This document shows positions 38,018 to 47,711 of a stretch of DNA of 47,711 nt, piece after piece (within the stretch, counting starts at the first letter, position 1; each line of letters starts with the position of its first letter). The stretch is taken from NCBI GenBank assembly GCA_026394015.1, contig JAPKZA010000268.1, positions 1-47,711 on the forward strand. The letters are read 5' to 3'. Made by a program: the position numbers and the translations under genes. Under the pieces are notes generated by a model that saw only the letters and a list, made by a program, of their open reading frames with translations, was not told the DNA's origin and did no database searches. Source of the stretch: Acidobacteriota bacterium. GTDB lineage: Bacteria > Acidobacteriota > Terriglobia > Bryobacterales > Bryobacteraceae.

Positions 38018-39520
38018 ATGGCGAGAACGGCGATCATTGTATTCCACGGGATTGGCCAGCATCAGGAGTTCGATACGCTCGAGGGAGTGGCCCACGCGCT
38101 GCTGAAGCGGGAGGGCGGGGATGGTGGGGTGACGGTGAGGTTGGTGGAGACCGGAGAGACGCCGGTGGCGGCGGCGACCGTGGAGTTGGGGGGAGAGCCG
38201 GTGGATTTGTATGAGGCGTATTGGTCGCCTTGGACGAAGGGCAAGGCGGGGTTGTTGACGATTTTCTGGTTCTTGCTGCTGGCGGGGGCGCGGGGGTTGG
38301 AGACGATTTTGTTTCGGAGGGCGCGGTTTCAGCGGTTTCTGTTTGGGCAGACGGAGGAGTTTCGGCTGTCGGTGGCGATAGGGTTTGCGCTGGCGTTTGT
38401 GATGGCGTTTGTGGTGGCGATTTTCGCCGTTGCGGGGGCTCTGATGTGGGTGGCGATTGGGTATGGGACGGCGGTGATGGGGCTGCCGCTCTTCGACCAG
38501 TGTTTGCTGCGGGATTTGCGGACTTGGCTGTATGTTCTACTGCTGGTGGGCGCGGCGTGGCTAGCGGTTTTTGGGGTGTTGGCTTACTTCGGCAAGGGTC
38601 GGTTGGCGGCGGTCTTGAACGTGGTGCTGGGCGGGTATATGGTATCGACGGTGGGGGGCTTGGTGCCGCTGGCGATGTGTGTGTATCGGCATTGGAATGG
38701 CCACGAGAATCGGCCATGGCCGCGGGGTTGTGGGGTTGATAGTTTGGATCCGTGGTTGGATTGGGTGGTTCCACCGAACTCGCTGCTACGGCCGTATTCG
38801 GACGATGCGACGTTGGGATGGCTGGTTCTGACGGTGATTGCCGTGGCGGTCGGGCTGAGCTACTTTTTTGTGATTCGGGAGCGGTTCACGGCCTACTTGG
38901 GGGACGTGGTGGCGTATTTTGGGGCGTATCGGATCACGGAGTATTACGAGGTTCGGGAGCAGATTCGGCGGCGGTGTTTGGCGCTGGCGCGGGTGGTGAT
39001 GGACCGGAAGGACGCGGCGGGTGAGCCGTACTATAGCCACGTGGTGGTGGCGGGGCATTCGCTGGGGACGGCGATTGGGTTCGACACGTTGAACGCCTTG
39101 TTACGGAGCAGCCCGGAGATGGCGGGGCGGATCAGCGCTTTTTTGACGCTGGGATCTCCGCTGGATAAGGCGGCGTTTTTGTTTCGGACCGATAGCGGGA
39201 CGGGGCTATCGGTGAGGACACAGTTGCTCGGGGCATTTCAGCCGATGATTTCGGATCAGGCGCTGCGGGAGCGGGTTCCGTGGGTGAACTTCTATTCGGG
39301 GCTGGACCCGATTAGCGGCTCGATTGAATACTACGATCCGCCTTCCCGGGGAATGGATTGGAAGGGTCGGGTGGTGAACGTGGTGGACCGGCGGGCGTCG
39401 ATTCCGATGGAGGCGCACACGCAGTATTGGGACCGCGCCGAGGTGGGGGAGGTGTTGTGGATGATGGCGCAGCCGGGCAACTTTTCGGCGGCGGAGATTC
39501 GGAAGAGAGCAAGTCGTTAG
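38018..39520 (+). CDS. Integral-membrane alpha/beta hydrolase (lipase/esterase-like)
   Basis: Five hundred residues. The first strand carries IIVFHGIGQHQEF, whose HGIG can form the oxyanion hole. About five membrane helices then fill residues 77-290 (for example FALAFVMAFVVAIFAVAGAL and WLVLTVIAVAVGLSYFFVI), interrupting the hydrolase fold. The nucleophile elbow VVVAGHSLGTAIGFDTL has Ser348. The C-terminal part contains a likely acid in FYSGLDPISG and a His in PMEAHTQYW. Such insertion of membrane helices between the oxyanion strand and the catalytic core is unusual. It probably hydrolyses lipid or ester substrates at the inner face of the membrane. Its stop overlaps the opposing protease stop by 4 bases. 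Confidence 0.78.
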   Translation: MARTAIIVFHGIGQHQEFDTLEGVAHALLKREGGDGGVTVRLVETGETPVAAATVELGGEPVDLYEAYWSPWTKGKAGLLTIFWFLLLAGARGLETILFRRARFQRFLFGQTEEFRLSVAIGFALAFVMAFVVAIFAVAGALMWVAIGYGTAVMGLPLFDQCLLRDLRTWLYVLLLVGAAWLAVFGVLAYFGKGRLAAVLNVVLGGYMVSTVGGLVPLAMCVYRHWNGHENRPWPRGCGVDSLDPWLDWVVPPNSLLRPYSDDATLGWLVLTVIAVAVGLSYFFVIRERFTAYLGDVVAYFGAYRITEYYEVREQIRRRCLALARVVMDRKDAAGEPYYSHVVVAGHSLGTAIGFDTLNALLRSSPEMAGRISAFLTLGSPLDKAAFLFRTDSGTGLSVRTQLLGAFQPMISDQALRERVPWVNFYSGLDPISGSIEYYDPPSRGMDWKGRVVNVVDRRASIPMEAHTQYWDRAEVGEVLWMMAQPGNFSAAEIRKRASR

Positions 39521-42500
39521 GGGGGGACCTGCCAGGCGCCGAGGGGTTTCCAAGTGCTGTTGAGGGCGCTGGAATTCAGGGCTCCGAAGACGATGCGGGG
39601 GCCGGCGAAGGCGGGCTTGAAGACGGTGTTGAGGTTGAGGGTGAGGGCGTTGCCGACGATGGAGACGCTGGAGCCCTGGGCGTTGATGCGGCACTGGGAG
39701 TTTTCGAGAAAGCCAGAGCCAGAGAGGGGCATGGCGGTGGCGTCGTTGCCATCGCCGTTGTCGGGGAAGAGTAGGAGGAGGTTGCCGGGGCGGAAGTAGG
39801 CGACGTAGCAGGCGCGGTCGGCGTTGACGGCGGAATTGATGAGGAGCCAGGTGGTTTGGATGTTGGTGGCGTTGGTGGCATCGAAGAAGGTGGCCGTGAG
39901 GGTGGGGTTGGCGACGGAGCCGGTGGTGGGGGAGAGGGTGTTGGCGCGCGGGAAGGGCGGGGTGGGTTCGGGTAAGGCGGAGACGCCCTGGGGCTGCCAG
40001 CCGGAGTTTTGTTCGGTGACCGAACGGGCGGCGAGGTAGATGACTCGATTGCCGGAGAAGGCGGAGGAGAAGGCGATGCTGAGAGTCAGGGTGAGTTCGG
40101 TGTTGGTGGAGGAGACGGACGACCCGGCGGAGAAGACGGTGCATTGGCTGTTGCTGACCGAGCCGGTGGCACCGAGCGTGAGCGGGCTGGAAAGGCCGGC
40201 GTCGGGCCCGGCGTTGTTGACGAGATAGAGAACGCGCTGGGGCTGGGAGAAGGCGATGTAGCAGGCGTTGCCGCCGTCGAGGGCGCGGTTGATGAGGGCG
40301 TTGAGGATGCCCAGTTCGGCGATGCCGGCGGGATGGGAGAAGCGGAGGGTGATGGTCTGGGTGGCCCCGGTGTGGAAGAGGGGACCCGTGGAGGTGACGG
40401 CGGGGACGACGGGCGTGGGGACGGGGGTTAAGAGGGCAGTCAGGGTGGTCGAGACGGCTACGTTGGGGGTGAACGAGGCGAGGGAGACGTAGTAGATGCC
40501 GGGTTGGAGGGGCGGGTTCGAGGCCGGGGTGATGACGATGGTTTCGTCGCCGGTGAGGGACTCGCCTTTGTAGTCGGCTTGGACGGTGCCGGAGAGGAGG
40601 GTGGGCGGGGTGCCGCGGCGGACGAAGAGGTCGACGTCGACGTTAGGGGTTTGGGTGCGGAGCCGGATTTCGAGGCGGGTGGCACCGACGGGGACGGTGA
40701 TCTGGCGACTGAGCGAGGCGGTGGTGTAGAGCTGAGCGGTGGTCCCGGAGGGGAGGAGCAGGGTGGATGGCGTATTGTGGAGCAGGGCGAGGTAGCCCGG
40801 GGCGGAGTTGAGGAGCTTGAGGGTGAACGAGCCTTCTGCGGCGGAGGGGAAGGTGGTGGCCTCGACGGTGTAAGTGCCGGTTGCCGGAAGGGTCAAGAGA
40901 CCGGTCGAGTTGGGGATGGCGGAGTTGAGGTTGCCGGCGGCGTCGTCGTCTTCGGCGAGTATGTTGCCGGTGGGGTCGAGGAGGTAGAGATAGGTATCGA
41001 GGGAGGGGGATTCGAGGACGATTTGGACGGTTTGGCCGACGGTGCCGGCGAAGGTGTAACGGGCGGCGAAGGTGCCGGGGGGGCGGAAGGTGGAACGGCA
41101 GGGGTTGGCGGCGGAGAGGGTGCCGGAGACGGTGACGCCGACGGTGAGGGGGGACGGGGCGCAGTTCGAGAGCGCGGCCTGGTTGACGGTGAGGGTGCGG
41201 CCGGCGATCAAGACGGTGCCGGAGCGGGGGGCGGCGGTGTTGTTGGCGGCGATATCGAGGCGGACGTCGGCGTTGCCGGCTCCGGAGGTGTTGGAGGCGA
41301 CGGCGATCCAGGAGGCTTGGGAGACGGCGGTCCAGTTGCAGCCGGCGGGGGTGGAGACGGCGATGTTGCGCTGTGCGGCGAGGGCGGCTTCGGTGAGGGT
41401 GGTGGGGTTAATCGAGTAGGTGCAGGCGACGGTGGTGGGGAGGATGGTCGTGAGGGTGAAGGCACCGGTGGCGGTGGCATCAAAGGCGGTGGCTTCGATG
41501 AGATAGGTGCCGGTAGAGGGGAGGGTGATGAGGCCGGTGCCGGCGGGGATGCGGCTATTGGTGCCGCCGCCGGAGTCGTCGTCTTCGGCGAGGACCGTGC
41601 CATCGGGACGGACGAGATAGAGATAGGTATCGAAGGCGGAGGAGCTGAGTTGGACGGCGATCTGTTGGCCGGCGACGCCGGCGAAGGAGTAGCGGGCGGC
41701 GCGGGTGTTGCCACGGAGGGGGCTGGTGCAGCTATTGGCGGAGAGGGAGGCGGAGGTAGCGGTGCCGAGAGCGAGGGGGGCGGTGGAGCAGGAGATGGTG
41801 AAGGCTTGTTCGACGATGTGGGTGGTGCCGCCGATTTGGATGGAGCCGCGGCGGAGGGCTCCGGAGCCGTTGGGGGCGACCTGATAGTTGAGGGTGGCGT
41901 TGCCCGAGCCGGAGGCGGGGGAGAGGCCGGTGATCCAGGAGGCTTGGGAGACGGCTTGCCAGGGGGCGGAGGTGGTGATGGAGACGGAGAAGGGGCCGCC
42001 GGCGGCAGGGACGGAGCGGGTGGGCGGGGCGAGGACGACGGGGACAGTGGTGCCGCCGCGGGGGCGGAAGGATTCGATGGTGGGGGCGGAGAGGGTGAAG
42101 GTTTGGGCGGCGTCGGCGCTTTGAGGATTGGAGGCGGGGAGGCCGATGGGGCGGCCGAGGACGAGGACGTCGGGGGAGGAGAAGTAGGGTTGGGTGGGGC
42201 AATCGGCGTTGGCGCATTGGTAGGCCATGATGTCGCGGAAGAAGGGCTGGGCTTCGGTGGACTGGTAGCCGAAGGAGTAGGAGAAGAGGCCTCGGCCGCC
42301 GGTGGCGCGGTCGTGGGCGGAGCCCATGTTGTGGCCGAGTTCGTGGGCGAAGGAGATGTTGCGCCAGAAAGTGGGGGATTCGGTGATGGTGACGCTGTAG
42401 GCGTTGCGGGCGAAGCTTTGGTCGTTCGTGGTCATGACCCAGGCGACGCCTCCGCAGTCGCCGCGGTTGACCCAGAAGCTGACGAGGTCGGCGCCGGTTT

Positions 42501-43308
42501 GGTCGCGGAGGGCGGGGACGTCGTCCATGACGCCGTCGTTGGGGTTGGTGATGCGGTCGAGGGCGGTGGAGCAGGAGCCGTTTTCGGTGTAGGTGACTTC
42601 GCGGGTGCCGACGAGGTTGATGCGGAGGGCGAGTCCGGTGTTGGCGTAGGCTTGGTTGGTAAAGGCGACGGTTTCGCGGATTTGGTTTTCGATGGCGGTG
42701 ACGCTGCCGGCGGCGGTGCGGGCGGCGGCGGAGTAGACGACGAGGACGTCGAGGATGCTGGCGGGTCCGGGGAGTTGGCGTTCGGGGAGGAGGGATTCGG
42801 CGGCTTGTTCCTGAGGCTGGTTGGGGGAGGGGCATTCGAGGCGGAAGGAGGCGGGGTCGACTTCGGTGATTTCGGCTTGGTTGACGGTCCCGGAGAGGTC
42901 GAAGATGCGGCCGGCGCCGGTGGCGAGGTAGCCGTTGAGTTGGCCGTCGGTGATGGCGAGGGAGAAGGATCCGGGGAGGGTGGTGTCGACGGTGCCGGTC
43001 CAGGATACGGAGGCGGATTCGGGCCAGAATTGGGCGTTTTGGATGGAGACGGGGAGGTCGAGGCCGGGGGCGACGTTGAAGCGGAGGCGGACGGGTTTGC
43101 CGGAGCGTTGGGCGGTGAGGAAGTGGGCGACGGAGGAGGGGTCGAAGAGAGCTTCGGCGAGGGCGGCGCGGTAGGCGGGGCGGAGGGCCCGGCGGGCGGC
43201 GTTATTCGGGGCGGGTTCGAGGCGATCGAAGGCGCGGGGAGGTAGGGGTTGGGCGGCTAGGGATCCGGCGACAAGGATCAGAAGGGCGAGCCGATGACGC
43301 AAGGGCAT
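39517..43308 (-). CDS. Secreted metzincin (M12-like) protease with BACON/PPC and tandem C-terminal domains
   Basis: A 1263-residue exported protein. The signal peptide (MPLRHRLALLILVAGSLAA) is followed by a propeptide-like region and a reprolysin-type catalytic domain with the metzincin motif HELGHNMGSAHD at 322-333 and Met-turn DIMAY near 360. Next come a BACON domain (about 420-500), a PPC domain (510-615, AEDDDSGGGTNSRIP), a second BACON (630-705), a second PPC (715-830, AEDDDAAGN) and a further PPC-like beta domain. It ends in two copies of a roughly 125-residue domain with the pattern ACYIAF...LYLVNNAG...SQC...AGSSVS...NSGWQPQG. The beta domains probably bind substrate or cell surface. 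No sorting signal such as a type IX secretion C-terminal domain is evident. Confidence 0.93.
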   Translation of the reverse strand: MPLRHRLALLILVAGSLAAQPLPPRAFDRLEPAPNNAARRALRPAYRAALAEALFDPSSVAHFLTAQRSGKPVRLRFNVAPGLDLPVSIQNAQFWPESASVSWTGTVDTTLPGSFSLAITDGQLNGYLATGAGRIFDLSGTVNQAEITEVDPASFRLECPSPNQPQEQAAESLLPERQLPGPASILDVLVVYSAAARTAAGSVTAIENQIRETVAFTNQAYANTGLALRINLVGTREVTYTENGSCSTALDRITNPNDGVMDDVPALRDQTGADLVSFWVNRGDCGGVAWVMTTNDQSFARNAYSVTITESPTFWRNISFAHELGHNMGSAHDRATGGRGLFSYSFGYQSTEAQPFFRDIMAYQCANADCPTQPYFSSPDVLVLGRPIGLPASNPQSADAAQTFTLSAPTIESFRPRGGTTVPVVLAPPTRSVPAAGGPFSVSITTSAPWQAVSQASWITGLSPASGSGNATLNYQVAPNGSGALRRGSIQIGGTTHIVEQAFTISCSTAPLALGTATSASLSANSCTSPLRGNTRAARYSFAGVAGQQIAVQLSSSAFDTYLYLVRPDGTVLAEDDDSGGGTNSRIPAGTGLITLPSTGTYLIEATAFDATATGAFTLTTILPTTVACTYSINPTTLTEAALAAQRNIAVSTPAGCNWTAVSQASWIAVASNTSGAGNADVRLDIAANNTAAPRSGTVLIAGRTLTVNQAALSNCAPSPLTVGVTVSGTLSAANPCRSTFRPPGTFAARYTFAGTVGQTVQIVLESPSLDTYLYLLDPTGNILAEDDDAAGNLNSAIPNSTGLLTLPATGTYTVEATTFPSAAEGSFTLKLLNSAPGYLALLHNTPSTLLLPSGTTAQLYTTASLSRQITVPVGATRLEIRLRTQTPNVDVDLFVRRGTPPTLLSGTVQADYKGESLTGDETIVITPASNPPLQPGIYYVSLASFTPNVAVSTTLTALLTPVPTPVVPAVTSTGPLFHTGATQTITLRFSHPAGIAELGILNALINRALDGGNACYIAFSQPQRVLYLVNNAGPDAGLSSPLTLGATGSVSNSQCTVFSAGSSVSSTNTELTLTLSIAFSSAFSGNRVIYLAARSVTEQNSGWQPQGVSALPEPTPPFPRANTLSPTTGSVANPTLTATFFDATNATNIQTTWLLINSAVNADRACYVAYFRPGNLLLLFPDNGDGNDATAMPLSGSGFLENSQCRINAQGSSVSIVGNALTLNLNTVFKPAFAGPRIVFGALNSSALNSTWKPLGAWQVPP

Positions 43309-43356: not shown

Positions 43357-44151
43357 CTAGTAGGGAGGCTCCGGCTGGTCGGAAAAGACGTTGGTTTCGA
43401 CGGTGGAGCCCGCGGCGCGGACTAGCGGCTTGGCGGGACGCTCCAGAACGGGGCTCCAGCCGGTTTCGCGTTGGCTTCGCTCGCTGGTCGGGGGTGCCTC
43501 TTCCTCTTTTGTTTCTTGCACTTCGGTTGGCTCTTCGCGGAAGAGATGGTCGACGGGGCCGGCGTCGGGCCCTAGGTATTCGGTGTTCGGCCGAACCGGT
43601 GATTTGGGCATGGGATTCAGTTTCCGGAGCATATTTAGCTCTCGGAGGCTGGCGTTGATGAGCCGGACGAGGGCCGCTTCTTCCCGCTGGAGTTGTTGGG
43701 GAATTTTGGCATCGAGGGCCATCCGGTTGGCCATCATAAGATCGATCGCGCCGACCAGTTGGGGTGCTACCCCGGGGTACTCGGTTTCGCGCACGTCGGC
43801 CAGGCAGGATTCCAGTTCGAGCGTTTGGAGCCGGGAGTTGCGCAACTGGCGCCATTGGGCGTCGACAATGCGCTGGACGATACCGGTTTCGACGCGATTT
43901 CGGGGGGATAAGTAGCGCGAGTATTCTGCGACCATGTTGCGATACTCGGCGATGTCTTCGCCGGAGAGCAGGGCGAGTCCCGGGGCCCCGGTGTGGTCAA
44001 CGATGACGGTTCGGCTGCCGTTTTTGAGGCTGTTGATGCGGGAGTTCATCTTACCGGTTTGGGTTCGTGGTCCGGTACTCTTCTGGGCATTCTGCCGGTT
44101 GATTTCGGCGCGACGGGCCTTTTTCTCTTCGTCGGTTAGTTGCTGCGACAT
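43357..44151 (-). CDS. STGPRT-motif hypothetical protein
   Basis: A 264-residue protein of a family frequent in Acidobacteriota and Planctomycetota, defined by an N-terminal NRQNAQKSTGPRTQTGK-type segment followed by RINSLKNGSRTV. A mostly helical middle (PRNRVETGIVQRIVDAQWRQ, EAALVRLINASLRELNMLRK) and a Glu/Pro-rich tail follow. The family has no known function; its basic N-terminus suggests nucleic-acid binding, which is a guess. ATG has AAAGGAG upstream, directly after a terminator-like hairpin. It is 48 bases downstream of the protease gene in position but lies upstream of it in transcription and may be cotranscribed. Confidence 0.82.
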   Translation of the reverse strand: MSQQLTDEEKKARRAEINRQNAQKSTGPRTQTGKMNSRINSLKNGSRTVIVDHTGAPGLALLSGEDIAEYRNMVAEYSRYLSPRNRVETGIVQRIVDAQWRQLRNSRLQTLELESCLADVRETEYPGVAPQLVGAIDLMMANRMALDAKIPQQLQREEAALVRLINASLRELNMLRKLNPMPKSPVRPNTEYLGPDAGPVDHLFREEPTEVQETKEEEAPPTSERSQRETGWSPVLERPAKPLVRAAGSTVETNVFSDQPEPPY

Positions 44152-44207: not shown

Positions 44208-44420
44208 GGTTGCTTTCGCTGGTTTCATCTTACACTACGGGTTCCAAATTTCGGGGGGTAGTGGGAGGGTGAAAAGTAGGTGTAGGTTGTTGAAAAGAAT
44301 GGAGTAAAAATAAATATGAATTACTTGTGAACGGGTTGCCCGGGGAGGCAAGAAACTCGCACTATGATCGTCTCCTTCGCAAAGCGCTATACTAGCGAAT
44401 TACTGTCGGAGGCAGAGCAG
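44208..44420 (+). promoter_or_regulatory. Divergent promoter region, AT-rich
   Basis: Contains an AT-rich patch around 44300-44330 and a small TTGCC/GGCAA hairpin near 44335-44350. On the plus strand a TATACT -10-like element sits at 44388-44393, about 28 bases before the ATG at 44421, and GGAGG is 8 bases before the ATG. A -35 element at the usual spacing is not clear. No gene is seen. Confidence 0.45.
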
Positions 44421-47400
44421 ATGGGGTTTAGCGACAAGAAAACCGAGGGCGGCCACTCGGCGTCCTACCCAAACTACGAAGTCCTTCCCATTCTCGCCGC
44501 GCCTTCTCATGGAAAAGAGAAGAACACCCTCCGCGAAGAGCTGATTCCCATTGGTTGCTGGAAGCTGGAGGATCTCCGCTTCCTGTTCGATTCCTCCATG
44601 GTGCTTCCCGATGCCAAGCCGGAATTCGATGAACTCGCCACCCTCAAGAACGCCCTACCCGGCTCGCCCCTCACCATCTTCGGCCACGCCGACCCGGTAG
44701 GCGACGACGCCTACAACAAGGTTCTCTCCGGCCGCCGCGCCCGCGCCGTCTACGCCGTCATCACCCGCAACATCGAGATATGGGAAGCACTCTATTCCAA
44801 CTCCGACGGCACCGGCGACGACTGGAGCCTTCGCCACCTCCAGATCATGCTCAAGGCCCTCGGCTTTGATCCCGGCAATACCTCCGGTTCCGCCACCACC
44901 CAATCGGCAAACGCCGTCAAAGACTTTCAGCGCAAGAATCCTCCTCTGAAAGACGACGGCGACCCCGGTAAGGAGACGCGCAAAAAGCTCTTCCAGGCCT
45001 ACATGGACTTCCTGTGCCCGGTGACCCTATCCAAGGCTGATTTCCTGGGACGCGGCGAAGACCCCGGTGGCAAGGCTGACTACCAGGGCTGCTCGGAATT
45101 CAATCCGCAGATGATGTTTTCGGCTGACGAAAACACCAAGTTCACGAACACCGCCGACAAGACCGAACGCAACGTGGAGAACTCCACAAACCGCCGCGTG
45201 ATGGCGCTGCTCTTCCGTCCCGGTACAAAAATCAATATCAATCGCTGGCCGTGCCCGCGCGCCGCGGAGAGCACCGCCGGCTGCGTCAAACGGCTCTGGG
45301 CGGACTCTGCCACGCGCCGCCAGTTCCAAGCGAAGCGCCGCACCAACGTAGCGGACCGCAATACCTTCGCCTGCCGTTTCTATGACCGCATGGTCGGCAC
45401 CTCTCCGTGCGAAGGCCCCATCGTTCCCATCGACGATCGGAAGCTCCGGGTCTTCCTCAAGCTGATGTATCTCGATCCGGAAGGAAAGCCGCAACCCTTC
45501 CCCAAAGATGTGCCGGTGACCGTTCTCAACCCCGCGGGCGATCAGAACGAAAAGACCCTCAACGACGGTTTGCTGATCTTCGACTTCGACCGGGCGAAGA
45601 ACTTTTTCACCCTTAGCTTCAACCATCCCGACCACTACTTCTCTGTGGCTACCGTTACCTCCACCGCCGCGGAGAAAAATCGCTGGCTCGCCGCCGCCGA
45701 TGTGCCAGCTGCCGTGAAGGACGCTTTCCACGTCTTCAAAGCCCCCAAGGAGTGGTCGCTTGTCACCTCGGACTGGAAGAAAGTCGATAGCGCCTTCTAC
45801 AACACCACCGAGTTCCGGTTCGAAAACCTCTCCCCGAAAACCGCCGAACTCGGCGTTGAGGGCGCGCCCGTCGAAATGCGCCTCGACCCCCATTGGCAGT
45901 TCGTCCGCTTTGAGTTCTTTGATCGGGCGTTCGGTCATGCCAGCCACGCCGGCAAGCGCATTTCGACGCCTCCCCTTCTCCTCGAAGGATTCCGCGACGG
46001 ATCGGCCACCCGCGGTGCCGTCCCCAACCCCGATACCCGTTCCAACTGTACGATCAACCTTGCCGATCCCGCTACCCAGACGCAAGCCTTGCCGTGGATC
46101 CTGCAGCGCAAGGCCGACAAATCCGCCGACGCTCGCCCCATCGCCAAAGTACTGCTGCAATTCACCCAGCCCGCCAATACCTTCATCGCCTCCCAGAACG
46201 GCACCACGCGAACGATCGAAGCCATAGCCGACGCCGCCAAACTCGCGCCCGGCCCCGATCGCATGAAGCTTTATGACCTGCCCGCGCTTTGGAAATCCAA
46301 CAAATACTTCACACGGGGAGCCGCCACCAACAAGTTCTACGATCAGCTCACGGACGCAGACGTCCTCACCTCCCTCGATAAGGCCAAACCGCTCACCTTT
46401 TCGCTCGATGACATCATCCTAGTCGACGCCGCAGGCGCGCCCAGCCCCGTGGGCGGCGACGAGCTAGCGCTCATTTTCTTCCATCAGTTCAAGAAACCCG
46501 CCGGCGGCAACGCGGACATCAAGGATCAAGGCGTCTGGAAACTCGGCACCGACTCGACGAAAGCCTTTTTCCCCTATTCCGACGTCAAGATGCCGGTCAA
46601 GCACTACGTGCAGGACTATGCCGACTGGACCCGGCTCGTGGTCGTGAACGGCAATCTATACGAGGCCTTCGCGGACCGCACGCCCGACGTCGGTGCCCAC
46701 GACGTGATCGGTGCCCGCGCCGCCAACATGTGGGTGGATTCGGTCGCCGCCGGGCAGACTCCCACTAATGCCGTCAGCCCCCGGCCCACCACCACTACCA
46801 AGCCGTTTTACTCCATCCAGCCGTTCTGCTTCCAAGACATCCACCGTGTTCGCTCGGCTTGCATGCCCGCCGGACAGTCGAATGAAAATACCGCCCAGGT
46901 CCCGTCTCATCCAGGCTTCTTCTACGGCCGCTATGACACGGCTTTGCTCCGGTGCTGCGACCTCGATGGAACGATTGAACTCGCCTTCAACGTCAATTTT
47001 TTCCGGTTCCACTTCGATTTCACGAATGCACCGGCCACCAACGCCGACAACTCCCCTTTCAGTAACGGCAATTACAAGAAGTTGATGCTCGAAAACGTCC
47101 CCAAACGTTGGAACGGTCCGGAAACACTGACGCTCACCGATGGCAGCGCCTTTGTCGCCAACACCGGGGACTACTTTTTTACGCCCCAGCCTCCCTCCGT
47201 GCTTCCATTCAAGTGCAAACCGTTCCTCTACTGCCAGGACACCCCGCAGCCGCGCGCTCACTTCCGCCTCAACGTGCTCAGCCAACCCCGCGCCGACATG
47301 AACGGAGTCACTGGCGTTGGCAATTTCACGGCGGGCAATGAAGTCGTTGACCTCAGGTCCGGCAGCTTCATCGCCGCACATGAAACCGGGCACGGCTACT

Positions 47401-47711
47401 CCCACCCCGACGAGTACAATGAACGTTGGAGCGCCGCTGCCTGTTCCTACACCTTTCCCGGTTTCGGGAGCCAAGTACCCGGCGATCCGTTCTCCAGCGA
47501 GTTCGGCGCGCTCATGATGGAAGGTACGGCCATCGTCGAGAACCGCTACTTCTGGCACTCCGCCGAATGGGTTCGGCGGATCATTTCCACCGGGCTCCAG
47601 GTCGAGTCGGCCGCGCATAAATATTTCGTACCGGGCCATCCCACCGCTGTCAACAACAGCCGCGCCTTCACCTACTTCCCTTTGCACATCAACTCGCGCG
47701 CCACCGGCGGC
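44421..47711 (+). CDS. Giant OmpA/peptidoglycan-binding protein with C-terminal HETGH zinc motif (3' end cut off)
   Basis: Open frame of 1097 codons running off the window; SD GGAGG 8 bases before the ATG. There is no signal peptide. Residues about 50-125 are an OmpA-like domain (DLRFLFDSSMVLPDAKPEF, LTIFGHADPVGDDAYNKVLS). Residues about 135-195 are a PG_binding_1 domain (LQIMLKALGFDPG, AVKDFQRK, GDPGKETRKKLFQAYM), followed by a conserved FLGRGEDPGGKADYQGCSEF block. A long middle follows, with a Cys-rich block near CFYDRMVGTSPCEG-like sequence and no recognised domain. Near residue 987 is HETGHGYSHPDEY, a HExxHxxxH zinc-protease-like motif with more acidic residues after it (GALMMEGTAIVENRY). 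Possibly an effector or spike-tethered enzyme of a contractile injection system; this is inference. Base composition differs from its left neighbours. Confidence 0.83.
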   Translation, partial: MGFSDKKTEGGHSASYPNYEVLPILAAPSHGKEKNTLREELIPIGCWKLEDLRFLFDSSMVLPDAKPEFDELATLKNALPGSPLTIFGHADPVGDDAYNKVLSGRRARAVYAVITRNIEIWEALYSNSDGTGDDWSLRHLQIMLKALGFDPGNTSGSATTQSANAVKDFQRKNPPLKDDGDPGKETRKKLFQAYMDFLCPVTLSKADFLGRGEDPGGKADYQGCSEFNPQMMFSADENTKFTNTADKTERNVENSTNRRVMALLFRPGTKININRWPCPRAAESTAGCVKRLWADSATRRQFQAKRRTNVADRNTFACRFYDRMVGTSPCEGPIVPIDDRKLRVFLKLMYLDPEGKPQPFPKDVPVTVLNPAGDQNEKTLNDGLLIFDFDRAKNFFTLSFNHPDHYFSVATVTSTAAEKNRWLAAADVPAAVKDAFHVFKAPKEWSLVTSDWKKVDSAFYNTTEFRFENLSPKTAELGVEGAPVEMRLDPHWQFVRFEFFDRAFGHASHAGKRISTPPLLLEGFRDGSATRGAVPNPDTRSNCTINLADPATQTQALPWILQRKADKSADARPIAKVLLQFTQPANTFIASQNGTTRTIEAIADAAKLAPGPDRMKLYDLPALWKSNKYFTRGAATNKFYDQLTDADVLTSLDKAKPLTFSLDDIILVDAAGAPSPVGGDELALIFFHQFKKPAGGNADIKDQGVWKLGTDSTKAFFPYSDVKMPVKHYVQDYADWTRLVVVNGNLYEAFADRTPDVGAHDVIGARAANMWVDSVAAGQTPTNAVSPRPTTTTKPFYSIQPFCFQDIHRVRSACMPAGQSNENTAQVPSHPGFFYGRYDTALLRCCDLDGTIELAFNVNFFRFHFDFTNAPATNADNSPFSNGNYKKLMLENVPKRWNGPETLTLTDGSAFVANTGDYFFTPQPPSVLPFKCKPFLYCQDTPQPRAHFRLNVLSQPRADMNGVTGVGNFTAGNEVVDLRSGSFIAAHETGHGYSHPDEYNERWSAAACSYTFPGFGSQVPGDPFSSEFGALMMEGTAIVENRYFWHSAEWVRRIISTGLQVESAAHKYFVPGHPTAVNNSRAFTYFPLHINSRATGG

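Follow-up and report, generated by a model that had tools for sequence, protein, structure and literature searches.

A predicted type VI secretion cargo effector opening with OmpA-like and peptidoglycan-binding domains in an Acidobacteriota bacterium

RIX effectors and adaptors of the type VI secretion system (T6SS) join constant N-terminal parts to variable C-termini (PMC10435454). At vgrG loci, the linking of VgrG to toxin by LysM proteins has been demonstrated, and PG_binding_1 occurs in arrangements of the same kind (PMC10673891). VgrG2b is a T6SS metallopeptidase that is toxic in the periplasm; its immunity protein needs its signal peptide, and one orthologue of that immunity protein is an outer-membrane lipoprotein (PMC6899460). 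Polymorphic toxin systems include metallopeptidase toxins and OmpA domains, with acidobacteria among the carriers of T6SS and PVC types (PMC3482391). Furthermore, Vibrio T6SS secretomes contain an OmpA_C protein of unknown role as well as LysM proteins (PMC4549250), and DUF4123 is paired with M12 peptidases in an Acinetobacter vgrG neighborhood (PMC6838775). Here, we describe a gene at the end of a 47,711-nucleotide stretch of DNA (the window) from an Acidobacteriota bacterium of the Bryobacteraceae. Its product opens with an OmpA-like domain, a peptidoglycan-binding (PGB) domain and a cysteine-containing region, and, on the basis of its sequence, we regard it as probably a T6SS cargo effector representing a new class of carrier. 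It is not placed among proven members, since the window holds no T6SS-type gene and both secretion and toxicity are predictions. The window is all of contig C268 of a 7.9-Mb genome in 574 contigs; labels in C denote contigs of this genome, those in L loci, those in G sampled genomes and those in A alignments.

In the explanation that we favor, at slightly better than an even chance, the protein is a T6SS-delivered cargo effector of a polymorphic family, combining a loading module with a C-terminal zinc protease, and a separate signal-bearing protein encoded downstream confers immunity. The modular architecture, the zinc motif, the T6SS genes of the genome, the T6SS-type neighbors in relatives and the conserved downstream gene were all computed from sequence. 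Residues 1–331, comprising the OmpA-like domain, the PGB domain and a six-Cys region, would form a reusable module for loading, by which the protein docks on the spike; the contact would probably be made by the C-terminal transthyretin-like tail of VgrG, or by a free copy of that tail, together with a LysM-like/PGB partner. The C-terminal HExxHxxxxxD zinc protease would then cleave proteins in the envelope or periplasm of the target cell, and the propeller-like, signal-bearing protein encoded directly downstream would protect the producer. It is from the architecture and the neighbors that we infer secretion by the T6SS, the role of the module as loader, the periplasmic target, the overlapping start of the partner and its immunity role.

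Constant module and varied C-termini

The two wall-binding domains that an initial annotation had placed at the N-terminus both score over their Pfam cut-offs (Table 1); beyond OmpA and PG_binding_1, no Pfam match to the window protein was obtained at E up to 1. Across the 33 rows of alignment A1, six cysteines of the module are invariant (46, 224, 278, 288, 318 and 330), and the module boundary is sharp, with conservation stopping directly after SPCE. The Cys-containing GTSPCEG block singled out earlier is present at residues 326–332, but it is not an isolated element, as its SPCE closes the conserved 331-residue module.

A search of the window protein against 200 genomes of its own family returned matches in 27, of which 25 were to the first part of the protein and two (G164 and G090) to the C-terminal part only; at most three candidates were scored per genome, and copy numbers are lower bounds. 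Detection of the module relied on one query sequence or on a family-only profile, and the genes of relatives were called mechanically as open frames. When the C-termini of 40 module proteins were compared by single linkage at E 1e-4 (window protein included; truncated copies L062 and L071 left out), they fell into nine groups. At the level of sequence, a constant N-terminal module thus precedes unrelated C-termini, the pattern of a polymorphic effector family. An HExxH motif is present in 22 of the 40 proteins and stands in several settings: HExxHxxxxxD in the window protein, HExxHxxGxxH in L041 and neither of these in others. The 18 module proteins that lack HExxH measure 447–811 residues, versus 714–1618 for those that carry it, and behind 16 of their genes (the exceptions being L050 and L073) a same-strand frame of at least 295 residues starts no more than 250 bases downstream. 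For L049, the downstream frame encodes a tyrosinase (PF00264, E 1.9e-33), with relatives in L045 and L047 by clustering. Such tyrosinase-type genes lie 12–15 bases behind HExxH-less module genes (L049:2487-3566, L047:7415-8395 and L045:5078-6133; Pfam was applied to L049 only) and may represent cargo in trans. Conversely, the window-type C-terminal region, whose carriers are referred to here as the C-family, follows a divergent or different N-terminus in five loci (L075, L078, L079, L080 and L082). At L051:5383-10236, a 1618-residue module protein has two HExxH motifs, at 973 and 1564, and is possibly two protease units in one chain.

The shared N-terminal module with differing C-terminal extensions recalls the RIX proteins (PMC10435454), as do the separate cargo genes that lie behind versions without a toxic domain. 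RIX, however, is Arg-rich and widespread in Vibrionaceae, whereas the present module consists of OmpA, PGB and the six-Cys region and belongs to Acidobacteriota; RIX secretion was shown by experiment, whereas that of the module proteins is a prediction. Metallopeptidase toxins and wall-binding domains also occur in modular polymorphic toxins, but OmpA is described there at the extreme C-terminus, as a proposed toxin, whereas here it is N-terminal and constant (PMC3482391). In a draw of 297 genomes from the phylum (seven candidates scored per genome; three family genomes in the draw), whole-module matches were confined to the genome under study, and, outside the family, the hits listed extend over the OmpA part alone. 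Two plasmid matches likewise cover only the OmpA part and no whole module, and phages gave no match. A scan of named genomes, which reaches close relatives only, found four relatives.

Somewhat more tentatively, at a little under an even chance, we propose that the OmpA-PGB-six-Cys module defines, within a single Acidobacteriota family, a class of T6SS carriers that has gone unreported. In such a class, wall-holding domains would have been turned into a cargo-loading end, the cargo being either attached in cis, as with several protease types, or supplied in trans, e.g., the neighboring tyrosinase, and LysM-like/PGB and free VgrG-tail proteins would serve as a detachable spike adaptor. No title among the literature matches listed, all open-licence papers, joins OmpA and PGB at the N-terminus of an effector in this manner. 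If correct, the proposal would yield a sequence marker for T6SS cargo, orphan genes away from T6SS clusters included, and this in a phylum to whose effectors none of 15 listed titles is devoted. It would also add a second architecture for T6SS proteases, with candidate immunity proteins of its own, make the way in which OmpA and PGB domains came into needle loading testable and, through the tyrosinase neighbors, widen the known kinds of cargo.

Type VI secretion genes in the genome and in relatives

Loading by a contractile or type VI-like apparatus, as first suggested, presupposes injection-system genes, and the genome contains them: TssC, Hcp, TssF, TssH, VgrG, TssM and PAAR, the core components looked for, were all found. 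TssC gave three matches. TssC, Hcp, TssF, TssH (ClpV) and VgrG, the last with a single match in the genome, are on C338 (TssH, TssF and Hcp over cut-off), TssM is on C186, and there are one PAAR match, on C302, and one DUF4123 protein. The VgrG carries a C-terminal CarboxypepD_reg/transthyretin-like tail (E 5.4e-5, under the curated cut-off), and a PGB gene (E 2.7e-8) begins 3 bases past its stop codon. The label "LysM-like" for this PGB gene was given by eye, with PF01476 reaching E 0.077 in L056 and not matching the copy of the genome under study. The PGB region of the module resembles the VgrG-adjoining gene at E 1.8e-7 to 5.5e-4, although PGB domains are generally alike. On account of this resemblance, and because LysM proteins link VgrG and toxin elsewhere (PMC10673891), the wall-anchor role first assigned to the N-terminus looks less likely than a loading role. 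As for an envelope anchor of the Pal/OmpA kind, hydropathy revealed no hydrophobic N-terminal stretch, and the NCBIfam Pal and OmpA models scored far under cut-off.

Since the window is without a T6SS-type gene and the sole PAAR match is on another contig, the link to the T6SS rests on relatives. A same-strand T6SS-type gene lies no more than 2 kb upstream of 16 of 41 module genes, a set to which the window gene does not belong. Directly upstream of many module genes are homologues of the VgrG-adjoining PGB gene. In front of these homologues, in most cases, a stand-alone protein of about 200 residues is encoded that contains a domain homologous to the VgrG tail. Free VgrG-tail-like proteins upstream of a PGB gene can be seen at L056:10058-10639, L075:9652-10263 and similar places. 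Four of the five further C-family genes also have a same-strand T6SS-type neighbor no more than 2 kb upstream, and the fifth, L078, has none in the available 7 kb upstream. The C-family genes of L079 and L082 overlap a small gene, homologues of which come after VgrG and DUF4123 in L131, L132 and L138. In L077 (G058), a DUF4123 gene (E 2.9e-32) is also upstream on the same strand. These arrangements resemble the vgrG loci described previously, in which LysM and PG_binding_1 are either encoded separately or fused to VgrG or a toxin, in that the upstream PGB gene is homologous to the neighbor of the genome's own VgrG (PMC10673891). They differ in that OmpA is unmentioned in the main text of that paper, that neither a six-Cys region nor a metzincin-like protease was seen in its passages and that LysM is weakly supported here.

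Co-occurrence points in the same direction. TssC was found in 24 of 25 module genomes versus 112 of 175 others (Fisher p 5e-4), in 12 of 13 module genomes when the own genus was left out (p 0.03) and in 11 of 11 C-family genomes (p 0.013), although these Fisher values overstate independence because the genomes share ancestry; G164 and G090, with a match to the C-terminal part only, are left out of the count. Of the two routes first envisaged, the T6SS thus has indirect support from the genes of the genome, the neighbors in relatives and the co-occurrence with TssC, whereas an extracellular contractile injection system (eCIS) is unlikely. As a separate observation, DUF4123 opens a 755-residue frame at L127:9179-11443 (contig C483), and Pfam matches nothing in the rest of this frame at E up to 0.1; a kinase-like frame, judged by eye, comes next, and similar long frames occur in several genomes of the genus.

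Zinc motif, downstream partner and competing explanations

HETGHGYSHPDEY begins at His987, and the chance expectation of HExxH for a protein of this composition is 0.02. Alignment A4 comprises the window protein and nine relatives that are 31–77% identical to it. In all ten rows, H987, E988, H991, D997 and Met1033 are invariant, whereas residue 995 is His in the window protein only and Leu in the nine relatives. The HExxHxxxH first read as the zinc motif is thereby ruled out; because His995 is unconserved and Asp997 invariant, the motif is HExxHxxxxxD. The unusual spacing formerly set against that of metzincins disappears with it, since D997 sits at the third-ligand position of HExxHxxGxxH/D. 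When the A4 profile was compared with PDB sequences, two distinct matches were obtained at E up to 1 (E 0.0011 and 0.0012), entitled "extracellular small neutral protease" and "zinc endoprotease". Both are what we take to be snapalysin (peptidase M7; 1c7k, 1kuh, 4hx3), aligned over HExxH and the Asp, which is presumably its third zinc ligand. No other solved structure matched the C-family profile at E up to 1. Whereas the snapalysin chains have 132–134 residues, the region that contains the motif here spans about 970 residues; the NCBIfam M6 domain model matches weakly at the same place (E 0.098). The C-terminal protease of the initial annotation thereby gains indirect support from the invariant motif and the weak snapalysin profile match.

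A same-strand gene follows the effector gene in nine of the ten C-family loci (the own copy on C40, L007, L009, L008, L081, L075, L082, L079 and L080), and behind the tenth gene, L078, only 177 bases of its contig are left. Pfam matches of the products are of propeller type but weak, with PQQ_2 at E 4e-5 in L079 and 2e-3 in L009 (under cut-off) and no PQQ_2 match in the own copy. From the ATG located 64–124 bases past the effector stop (own copy: 83), no leader is seen. Upstream starts give genes of 414–458 codons that begin 4 to 23 bases before the base after the effector stop, and these are preferred because they place a hydrophobic leader at the N-terminus. The leader exceeds the hydrophobicity limit of the screen in L081, L075, L082, L079 and L080, and a weaker leader from GTG was seen by hand in the own copy, L007, L009 and L008. 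Eight of the nine partners have a Cys close to where a lipobox would be expected, canonically placed in fewer of them; the own copy has Ser. A second, unrelated type of partner lies behind five other module genes, among them a paralogue on C52 of the same genome; all five products are lipoprotein-like, and their genes overlap the module gene by 4 bases, four of them starting at GTG. Altogether, signal-like partners are found behind 10 of the 22 HExxH-bearing module genes, seven by the screen and three of the window type. The propeller-like gene is a possible immunity partner. The layout predicted here resembles VgrG2b and Tpe-Tpi, where a T6SS zinc protease acts in the periplasm and a downstream immunity gene encodes a product facing the periplasm (PMC6899460). 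VgrG2b is fused to VgrG, however, whereas the carrier here would be the OmpA-PGB module; in addition, an Asp with the spacing of metzincins is proposed as third ligand, and the partner has a propeller-like product.

Several observations weigh against a T6SS-delivered antibacterial protease. The window contains no homologue of VgrG, DUF4123, the VgrG tail or the VgrG neighbor, the available neighborhoods of the close orthologues are equally without a T6SS-type gene, and 25 of the 41 module genes have no such partner within 2 kb upstream. G076 carries the module without a TssC match, the shared ancestry noted above tempers the co-occurrence values, and the name "LysM" for the VgrG-adjoining PGB gene is weakly supported. 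The protease assignment consists of a weak profile match and motif conservation; the Gly of HExxHxxG is found in 3 of 10 A4 rows, with Ser or Ala otherwise, and for this reason the region is called metzincin-like and given no family. Two structure models, built from few alignment rows, have mean predicted local distance difference test (pLDDT) scores of 40 and 28 and are too poor to use. On the side of the partner, the start was chosen by the analyst, and with the downstream ATG both overlap and leader vanish. The own partner lacks the lipobox Cys and lies on C40, a contig separate from that of the window; the leaders of the own copy, L007, L009 and L008 are under the hydrophobicity limit or seen only by hand; and 12 of the 22 HExxH-bearing module genes have no partner counted as signal-bearing.

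The last count also speaks for an alternative in which the T6SS secretes the protein but the protein is no periplasm-acting antibacterial toxin. It would instead be a protease released into eukaryotic predators or the environment, and the propeller-like protein would be its cofactor, inhibitor or receptor. The other enzymes behind some module genes, such as the tyrosinase of L049 and its L045 and L047 cluster, fit this alternative as well, being unlike usual antibacterial toxins. We nevertheless consider it unlikely, given the conservation of the downstream gene in nine of the ten C-family loci, the clear hydrophobic leader that its product shows in five of these loci when read from an overlapping start and the overlapping lipoprotein-like genes behind five other module genes, one of them in this very genome. 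Slightly more doubtful is a protease that stays with the producer's own envelope, where OmpA and PGB domains would hold it to the wall after export by an unrecognized route. OmpA and PGB domains are commonly bound to the producer's own wall, and the window is without a T6SS-type gene; however, hydropathy gives no signal peptide, relatives have T6SS-type neighbors and nine C-terminal groups would be unusual for a housekeeping anchor. A cargo of an eCIS or a tailocin appears very improbable. LysM and PGB domains do occur in predicted eCIS toxins (PMC11297309), and PF04984, the phage/eCIS-type sheath, is matched in 52 of 200 family genomes (44 over cut-off). Among 12 sampled genomes of the own genus, however, PF04984 is absent from 11, the genome under study included, and present in G197, whereas TssC is found in all 12. 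The eCIS route is therefore unlikely in this genome, although PF04984 may miss divergent sheaths. With these alternatives weighed, delivery by the T6SS of a module-borne zinc protease remains our preferred explanation.

Gene extent, contig end and neighboring genes

Table 1. Coordinates of the effector-like gene, its upstream signal and the regions of its product in the window
Feature	Coordinates	Strand	Remarks
Effector-like gene	44421..47711	+	1097 codons up to contig end, 3' end missing
GGAGG, Shine-Dalgarno-like	44408..44412	+	8 bases 5' of ATG 44421
N-terminal module, residues 1-331	44421..45413	+	conserved in 33 aligned proteins; proposed loading module
OmpA-like domain, residues 54-116	44580..44768	+	PF00691, E 9.6e-8, over Pfam cut-off
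PG_binding_1 (PGB) domain, residues 138-190	44832..44990	+	PF01471, E 1.5e-8, over Pfam cut-off
Cys-containing module end, residues 199-331	45015..45413	+	Cys224, 278, 288, 318, 330 invariant; ends in SPCE
C-terminal protease-type region	45414..47711	+	cut by contig end; family in 11/200 genomes
Zinc motif H987-E988-x-x-H991-x5-D997	47379..47411	+	conservation in A4, snapalysin alignment
Met1032-Met1033, candidate Met-turn	47514..47519	+	Met1033 invariant in 10/10 rows, Met1032 in 9/10

The open frame of 1097 codons stands, but the gene is cut by the contig end, and the two complete orthologues are 1304 and 1310 residues long. No stop codon occurs between the first start of the frame (44364), or the ATG at 44421, and the end of the window; as the window is a whole contig, the gene is truncated by the assembly. 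The start at 44421 is a reasonable choice, since GGAGG stands 5' of it and the first start codon of the frame falls at the equivalent residue in six relatives (L041, L042, L062, L071, L081 and L083). From neither start is there a hydrophobic N-terminal stretch (best 15-residue means 0.43 and 0.49, by hydropathy only), in agreement with the lack of a signal peptide reported before. Compared with three orthologues, the gene shows nonsynonymous divergence (dN) of 0.16–0.20 against synonymous divergence (dS) of 1.1–1.8; it is real and under purifying selection.

The last 207 bases of the window are 98% identical to C40:368-574 of the same genome, and C40 then holds the missing C-terminal part. The bases of C40 before this stretch do not match the window; the two contigs were compared, not joined. 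At the start of C40 (L011:1-367), a ribosomal L33 fragment occupies bases 1-138 (PF00471, E 1.7e-15), shortly before the effector tail, and this contig start is probably an assembly chimera or contamination.

Directly upstream of the effector-like gene, a 264-residue protein without a Pfam match at E up to 1 is divergently encoded on the minus strand (43357-44151). Two genes away, also on the minus strand (39517-43308), lies a second protease, a metallopeptidase of the reprolysin-like type (PF13583, E 3.1e-22) that also has PPC and BACON domains and a signal peptide as judged by eye.

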